DNA of 33,734 bases from an uncultured Bacteroidota bacterium (GTDB taxonomy: Bacteria > Bacteroidota > Bacteroidia > Chitinophagales > UBA8649). Positions 13,367 to 31,708 of the stretch are shown here, piece after piece; positions within the stretch are counted from its first letter, which is position 1, and every line of letters begins with the position of its first letter. A program made the position numbers and the translations under genes. The stretch covers positions 1 through 33,734 of the forward strand of contig CAKZQD010000240.1 in NCBI GenBank assembly GCA_937139485.1, in the 5' to 3' direction. The notes beneath the pieces are model-generated. The model did no database searches and was not told the DNA's origin. It worked only from the letters and a program-made list of their open reading frames with translations.

Positions 13367-13426
13367 ATTTTATTTAAGAATGATAAAATACCTCAAAGAC
13401 CTAATGTTTGATCAATTATTTCAAAT

Positions 13427-13634
13427 CATTAAATCATTCTCTCATTAAATCATTCACACATTAAATCATTCTCTCATTCTCTCATTCTCTCATTATCTCA
13501 TTAAATCATTTTCTCATTCTCTCATTATCTCATTAAATCATTCTCTCATTAAATCATTCTCTCATTCACTCATTAAATCATTCACACATTCTCTCATTAA
13601 ATCATTCACAAATTCTCTCATTAAATCATTTTAG
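13427..13634. repeat. 26-copy octamer array (CATTAAAT / CATTCTCT)
   Basis: The stretch is exactly 208 bp and parses into 26 octamers with no insertion or deletion. Nine units are CATTAAAT and eight are CATTCTCT; the rest are variants such as CATTCACA (three), CATTATCT, CATTTTCT and CATTCACT. Almost all begin with CATT (one AATT). It fills most of the 367-bp gap between the divergent 12956-13321 and nbaC genes and ends 22 bp before a -7-like box for nbaC. The array has no spacers, hairpin or ORF. Confidence 0.92.
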
Positions 13635-30563: not shown

Positions 30564-31628
30564 TTATTTTTTCAAATATATTGTTCCTTTACCTTTTCCG
30601 ATAGTAGAAACCATTTTTTCATTTCTAAGATATTCTAGATCTTTTTTTAGGGTATAAGTTGTTATATCTTGAAATGCTTTTGCGATATCTTGAAATTTTA
30701 CAGTTTGGTTTTCTTCTATAAATTTTTGAATTTTTTTCTGTCTTTCACTTAAATAACCACCTTTTGATTTAAAGACGTCATATTTCGCATCTAATTTTTG
30801 TGTTAAAAGATTTAGTTGGTTTAAAAAATACAATGTCCATTCAGATATTATTTCATCATCTTTATATCTGTTTTTTTGACCGTGCATTAAAGCACTATAA
30901 TATTCCTTTTTAGTTTTTTCTATTAAATTTTCAAAAGAAACATATTGTATGAAATGATATTCGGCTTTTAAAAGCAAATAGCTTGTTAATAATCTTGAAA
31001 GTCGCCCATTTTCGTCTTGGAATGGATGAATAGATAAAAATTCATAAACAAAATGAGCAATAATGAGTAATGGATGTATTTCTTTGTTTAAAAGCGATTC
31101 ATTGGTAATATTTAAGAGTTGATTCATTTCGTTTGCTACCAAAAAAACTTCTGTGGTGTTAAATATTACTTTTTGTAAACCGTCAGGATAATTGGCAACT
31201 ACTTTGTTCGATAATGATTTATAAGAACCTCTATGTCGTTCGTCTTTTGGACTATATTTTAGTAGGTTTTGATGGAATTGTTTTACGGTGTTTTCGGTTA
31301 AATCAATATTTGAAAAGTTTTCAAATACTAATTCTAAGGTGTCATAGTAACCAAAAACTTCTTGCTCGTCTCTCGTTTTAAGTTTTGTTATTTTAATTTT
31401 ATTTAATAGTTCTTTAATCTCTTCATTTGAAATTGTTGCACCTTCTATTCTCGTAGAAGATCCAATACTTTCTAATGTTGCAATCTCTTTTAACTCTTTT
31501 AAATAAATATTTTCCTTCTTTTCAATAGCATCCCATTTTCCTTTATATAAATCTATTTTACTAATGAGGTTTAAACTTTTCTGGTTGGTTTGAAAGTCAA
31601 AATTTATTTTTCTAATAAAATTATCCAT
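30564..31628 (-). CDS. Fic-domain protein (putative AMP-transferase) with C-terminal winged helix
   Basis: The 354-residue protein has an N-terminal inhibitory helix with SSTRIEG (58-63, matching (S/T)xxxE(G/N), the intramolecular antitoxin motif), the Fic core HPFQDENGRLSR at 201-212, and a C-terminal winged-helix region (about 292-354, VKFQDIAKAFQDITTYTLKK). Fic proteins transfer AMP from ATP to a target protein hydroxyl. The catalytic His201 and Arg209 are present, but the residue before NGR is Glu where Gly is usual. The wing domain suggests DNA binding, and an 11-bp-phased repeat overlaps the start codon, so self-control is plausible. Targets are unknown. Confidence 0.9.
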   Translation of the reverse strand: MDNFIRKINFDFQTNQKSLNLISKIDLYKGKWDAIEKKENIYLKELKEIATLESIGSSTRIEGATISNEEIKELLNKIKITKLKTRDEQEVFGYYDTLELVFENFSNIDLTENTVKQFHQNLLKYSPKDERHRGSYKSLSNKVVANYPDGLQKVIFNTTEVFLVANEMNQLLNITNESLLNKEIHPLLIIAHFVYEFLSIHPFQDENGRLSRLLTSYLLLKAEYHFIQYVSFENLIEKTKKEYYSALMHGQKNRYKDDEIISEWTLYFLNQLNLLTQKLDAKYDVFKSKGGYLSERQKKIQKFIEENQTVKFQDIAKAFQDITTYTLKKDLEYLRNEKMVSTIGKGKGTIYLKK

Positions 31629-31708
31629 AAGTTATTCATATTTTATCCATAACAAAGTTATTAATTTAGATCAAATTATCCATAAGTCAACCATATTTTA
31701 TTTATAAA
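31621..31708 (-). promoter_or_regulatory. 11-bp-phased array (TTATCCATAA) overlapping the fic start: putative operator
   Basis: The 88 bp divide into eight 11-bp units: TTATCCATAAG, TTATTCATATT, TTATCCATAAC, AAAGTTATTAA, TTTAGATCAAA, TTATCCATAAG, TCAACCATATT, TTATTTATAAA. Units 1-3 resemble 6-8, and units 4-5 are diverged. TTATCCATAA has symmetric TTAT/ATAA half-sites. Unit 1 contains the fic start codon, and the array reaches the stop codon of the upstream gene. An 11-bp period puts each site on the same DNA face. Binding protein and function are inferred, not shown. Confidence 0.65.

Follow-up and report, generated by a model that had tools for sequence, protein, structure and literature searches.

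In the window analysed here, the whole 33,734-nucleotide stretch of a Bacteroidota contig, short repeats in 11-bp register precede a fic gene and run over its start codon, raising the question of whether they form an operator and, if so, which protein reads it.

The fic gene and the repeats around its promoter

The features on which the argument rests are the following:

30564..31628, (-) strand: fic gene, 354 aa; AMP-transferase-like Fic domain of class II, followed by a C-terminal winged helix (Pfam Fic, 7.6e-14)
30564..30746, (-) strand: C-terminal winged helix, approximately residues 295-354 (DSSP on the predicted model), the part whose divergence follows the operator word
31616..31626, (-) strand: candidate operator unit 6 (cluster 2), at +2 relative to the ATG, over the start codon; matrix score 5.7
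31627..31637, (-) strand: candidate operator unit 5 (cluster 2), at -9; matrix score 7.9
31638..31648, (-) strand: candidate operator unit 4 (cluster 2), at -20, the predicted transcription start; matrix score 13.5
31653..31660, (-) strand: promoter -7 element TAACTTTG (consensus TAnnTTTG), at -32; same element at -33 or -32 in close orthologues
31671..31681, (-) strand: candidate operator unit 3 (cluster 1), at -53; matrix score 4.3
31681..31684, (-) strand: degenerate -33 element, TATG against TTTG in orthologues, inside cluster 1 and 20 bp from the -7 element; assigned from sequence
31682..31692, (-) strand: candidate operator unit 2 (cluster 1), at -64, degenerate; in register, matrix score below the cut-off of 4
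31693..31703, (-) strand: candidate operator unit 1 (cluster 1), at -75, over the stop codon of the upstream gene; matrix score 9.6

The encoded protein matches Pfam PF02661 and carries the Fic core motif HPFQDENGRLSR at residues 201-212, reading HPFQDENGR where an HPFx[D/E]GNGR-like sequence is expected, i.e., with D-E-N replacing D-G-N. The class II inhibitory motif (S/T)xxxE(G/N) is present N-terminally as SSTRIEG (residues 57-63), in which S58, R60, I61, E62 and G63 are invariant (alignment A2). An AlphaFold2 model (pLDDT 87, 32 sequences) consists of a Fic core followed by a winged helix, with helices at 295-307, 312-318 and 324-336 and wing strands at 340-343 and 350-353, the helix at 324-336 (TLKKDLEYL) being the predicted recognition helix. 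Its structural neighbours in Foldseek are 4RGL, 8UQU, CbFic2 (8CIL), CccR (7XUX) and SoFic (3EQX, 3ZCN); together with the winged helix modelled at residues 295-353, the match to 7XUX suggests the C-terminal helix-turn-helix (HTH) DNA-binding domain that characterizes CccR-type autorepressors. The protein does not reach the NCBIfam SoFic equivalog cut-off (40 bits versus 550), and its match to the PADLOC SoFic model (7.7e-34) is of a kind common to other Fic proteins. The start codon of fic is kept in orthologues of 70% identity, which align from residue 1, and the co-oriented choloylglycine-hydrolase-like gene in front of it ends 73 bp upstream.

The word TTATCCATAA occurs exactly at 31621, 31643 and 31676, and variant copies at 31632 (TTATTCATAT), 31687 (TCAACCATAT) and 31698 (TTATTTATAA) fall in the same 11-bp register. 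The initial annotation had located these exact copies and the variants at 31632 and 31698 correctly, while counting eight units; neither the 11-mer at 31654 nor that at 31665 matches the array word, which leaves six units, arranged three and three and of GGATAAAATAC type when read on the coding (-) strand. The two 33-bp blocks that hold them (31621-31653 and 31676-31708) lie 55 bp apart and are identical at 27 of 33 positions. A matrix 11 bp wide, trained on orthologues with the window left out, has the consensus GGATAAAATAC with a near-invariant ATA core. This matrix is asymmetric on the coding strand, so the symmetric core TTAT-CC-ATAA that had been read into the word is a local coincidence, and a palindromic operator was rejected. 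The view that all sites face one side of the helix holds as phasing inside each cluster, and strict phasing is confined there because the inter-cluster spacing, 55 bp in the window, is 56, 50, 48 or 61 bp in orthologues; moreover, 11 bp correspond to about 1.05 turns of B-DNA, so that sites drift by about 17 degrees per unit and share no exact face.

A promoter of Bacteroidota type lies between the clusters. The arrangement TTTG-N20/21-TAnnTTTG is found there in 13 of 14 close orthologues, with the -7 element at -33 or -32 when counted from the ATG. Transcription in F. johnsoniae begins 4-5 nt past the TAnnTTTG element (PMC6847099), which places the predicted fic start at about -20, the very position at which cluster 2 sets in. 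Cluster 1 overlaps the -33 region, and cluster 2 extends from that predicted start across the fic ATG.

Elsewhere in the window, positions 13426-13630 hold a long degenerate tandem array of TCATTCTC/TCATTAAA (TRF score 235; periods of 8 and 24 bp) that has nothing to do with the candidate fic operator.

Arrays upstream of fic homologues

Taken alone, the array in the window gives a moderate signal. The lag-11 score of the fic upstream region is equalled by 59 of 20,000 dinucleotide shuffles, and 107 of 4,000 shuffles reach it once all lags between 7 and 15 are admitted. The two best three-unit matrix runs on both strands of the 33.7 kb are the two triplets of the array (27.1 and 11.8, against a maximum of 17.8 in 200 whole-window shuffles), the weaker not being significant by itself (29 of 200 shuffles). 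The array word is not rare on its own, with 9 matches versus 6.3 expected when one mismatch is allowed, and a pattern search of the 3.0-Mb genome recovers the array at the fic locus only.

The question is decided by the orthologues. A scan of GTDB genomes yielded 49 relatives, many of them 68-71% identical from residue 1, and 11-bp tandem units stand at the equivalent position upstream of fic in these relatives. Across the 49 upstream regions the mean lag-11 z is 2.25, with the remaining tested lags from 8 to 14 between -0.6 and 0.4, while 118 non-fic genes from the same loci give a mean lag-11 z of 0.07 (sd 1.08, none above 3). Tandem arrays keep their position in many Bacteroidota and in other phyla, with a period of 11 in the clade of the window and of 10 in sister clades, and the local array score is at least 9 in 69 of 82 homologues. 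In homologues from a wider search of 396 Bacteroidota genomes, and of plasmids, the array words are CGTATCAAAT, TTGGCTCA, ATTGGATGGA, AATGGGTGTA and AATCGGGTAT, mostly at period 10. The arrays that the initial annotation proposed to look for before orthologous fic genes, naming their absence as a refutation, are therefore present.

These observations bear directly on the reading of the repeats as chance, or as a decaying and functionless minisatellite in an AT-rich intergenic gap. The window does contain several other simple tandem arrays, such as that at 13426-13630; nevertheless, dozens of homologues keep place, period and promoter layout in spite of differing unit words, and the 118 control genes carry no lag-11 signal, so that this reading is refuted and we give it next to no credence. 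The array is real and, read together with its orthologues, very probably functional.

The array is not a property of Fic genes at large. Two other fic-like genes of the same genome (L122 and L123) and 20 SoFic-like Bacteroidota loci all stay below a tandem score of 9 at period 10 or 11, on which grounds an array common to all Fic genes was rejected; no clear array was seen in the farther homologues L109-L112 or in L011 and L012. Searches of viral contigs found no relative, and phage records gave three relatives only, all distant.

Two further observations concern the genomic setting of the homologues. On rhizobial plasmids (L117, L118 and L119) the fic homologue, labelled a DUF977 family protein in several records, adjoins DUF736 genes and has ATTGGATGGA-type repeats upstream. 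In L035, L040, L041 and L044, the outer limits of several fic units are GTTGTGGTG, about 105 bp ahead of the ATG, and CACCACAAC, which lies a few bases past the stop codon; the sequence outside is hairpin-like and attC-like. As a lead, fic and its operator in some orthologues resemble a mobile integron cassette; integrase matches in the genomes of the attC-like fic units all fall below the family cut-off, and only some of the attC-like folds are better than those of shuffles.

The unit word follows the winged helix

The identity of the reader is indicated by the way in which the unit word changes among homologues. Particular words go with particular recognition helices: GATAAAATAC with KKD helices, CGTATCAAAT with PSPTVKR, TTGGCTCA with PKHTVKR, and AATGGGTGTA with RNTLKVHFRN, while the helix NTLKVRLREL and the word AATCGGGTAT are common to an acidobacterial homologue (L079) and two alphaproteobacterial ones (L114 and L120). 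The pair L007 and L008 illustrates this within a narrow range, the Fic domains being 70% identical, the helices PKHTVKR versus PSPTVKR, and the words TTGGCTCA versus CGTATCA. Over 48 non-redundant proteins, a partial Mantel test relates operator distance to winged-helix distance given the Fic domain (r 0.31, p 0.0005, a p-value that shared descent makes optimistic and from which the Fic-domain control takes out much of that effect), as opposed to 0.04 for operator and Fic-domain distance given the winged helix. The contrast is stable at word lengths of 4, 5 and 6, and sliding 50-residue windows give values of at most 0.13 for starts before residue 250, climbing to 0.29 across the winged helix.

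Since the word follows the winged helix and not the catalytic domain, the reader should be Fic itself and not a partner. No partner gene recurs beside fic in the neighbourhoods viewed, a non-systematic look, and a partner regulator as the reader was rejected on the lack of a recurrent neighbour in these loci. Another protein, such as DnaA or a host regulator, is suggested by the resemblance of the window's words to DnaA boxes, the unit TTATCCATA being one base off the DnaA box TTATCCACA. The orthologue words GTATTTTATCC, TTGGCTCA, AATGGGTGTA and CGTATCAAAT are not DnaA boxes, yet they keep the place and the 10- or 11-bp period, and the word tracks the Fic winged helix inside one gene family across phyla. 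DnaA boxes were accordingly rejected as unrelated to the orthologue words, and we hold a reader other than Fic to be very unlikely.

Proposed Fic autorepression and comparison with known systems

We propose, at a probability of roughly 0.8, that Fic itself binds the array and mainly represses its own gene. The C-terminal winged helix would occupy the 11-bp units in head-to-tail order, with each helical turn taking one protein, presumably in a cooperative manner. Two clusters of three would be filled, cluster 1 on the -33 side of the promoter and cluster 2 over the stretch between transcription start and start codon, and the two might touch or be joined by a loop. Filled clusters would exclude RNA polymerase and hold a potentially toxic AMP-transferase low. 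The suggestion of the initial annotation that Fic or a partner binds here to limit its own expression thus finds support in the orthologue arrays, in the tracking of word and winged helix and in the CccR precedent.

Several points weigh against Fic autorepression: unit 2 of the window's six is degenerate, and the promoter there has a poor -33 element; CccR, the one specifically binding Fic-HTH protein studied, uses inverted sites and a two-fold dimer; and EcSofic is toxic only with its C-terminal domain, to which no role on DNA has been assigned (PMC12249575). Alternatively, the winged helix could bind the array to activate transcription or to switch AMPylation between on and off, repression then not being its main effect. 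Cluster 1, upstream of the promoter, is also an activator position, and (de)AMPylation induced by DNA binding has been reported for CbFic2 of Coxiella (PMC10628234). However, cluster 2 over the predicted start and the start codon is a repressor position, and CccR is a repressor (PMC9755527); we therefore regard activation or switching as improbable, though less so than a foreign reader.

A broader reading, to which we give about even odds, extends autorepression to a stand-alone Fic family found in at least Bacteroidota, Pseudomonadota and Acidobacteriota. Its members may control themselves through head-to-tail winged-helix assembly on phased direct repeats that bracket the promoter, at 10 or 11 bp depending on the clade, with word and recognition helix co-evolving so that each member is a self-contained, portable and self-insulated expression unit; DNA occupancy may gate the AMP-transferase too.

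The closest precedent is CccR of Yersinia pseudotuberculosis (PDB 7XUX), a Fic-HTH autorepressor, as proven by DNase I footprinting and lacZ derepression, which binds the inverted pair AGATAATCAT-N26-ATGATAATCT as a two-fold dimer (PMC9755527). Both proteins combine a class II Fic domain with a C-terminal HTH and match in fold. CccR sits close to the -35 and -10 boxes of its own promoter, and the array, which flanks the fic promoters of orthologues and varies together with the winged helix, offers candidate sites of the same sort; the AGATAA core of the CccR site recurs in AGATAA units of the window's orthologues. By analogy, the window family would work like CccR in principle. The layouts differ: CccR has one inverted pair with a 26-bp spacer, whereas the window's direct repeats, at most six in number, follow one another every 11 bp within two clusters flanking the promoter. 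Because the CccR geometry is inverted, head-to-tail binding would need a different winged-helix arrangement. CccR is, in addition, a secreted T6SS effector. Arrays of this kind before fic genes are not described in the literature searched, the scope of which left out most subscription papers and all bioRxiv preprints, and the tandem, multi-unit, promoter-flanking layout is provisionally new relative to the inverted pair of CccR.

For the binding mode, a likeness is found in winged helices of PhoB/OmpR type, whose half-sites on pho boxes are spaced at 11 bp. The likeness, which lies in head-to-tail binding on direct repeats (PMC3348028), is one of binding mode only, as these are response regulators with an unrelated output domain and are usually activators. 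CbFic2 of Coxiella burnetii (PDB 8CIL) is a Fic protein with an HTH that binds DNA, studied on random DNA with no defined site (PMC10628234).

SoFic and EcSofic (PDB 3EQX, 3ZCN, 9VJC) are stand-alone anti-phage Fic proteins that join a class II Fic domain to a C-terminal winged-helix-like domain, like the window Fic, which is however not a SoFic equivalog. No tandem array precedes the SoFic-like genes of Bacteroidota; a frequent feature ahead of their start codons (L127, L128, L130 and L134-L137) is an inverted TGTCGA...TCGACA element, which may be an inverted operator of their own comparable to that of CccR. DNA binding by SoFic has not been demonstrated to date (PMC10628234), and work on EcSofic, which has a downstream antitoxin, AS1, treats the C-terminal domain as an activity switch (PMC12249575). 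So far, no general role had been assigned to the winged helix at the C-terminus of stand-alone Fic proteins; the arrays provide a specific candidate DNA target for a large Fic family, together with a natural helix-to-word code across phyla, and suggest a way in which cells may restrain a toxic Fic enzyme without an evident antitoxin gene.
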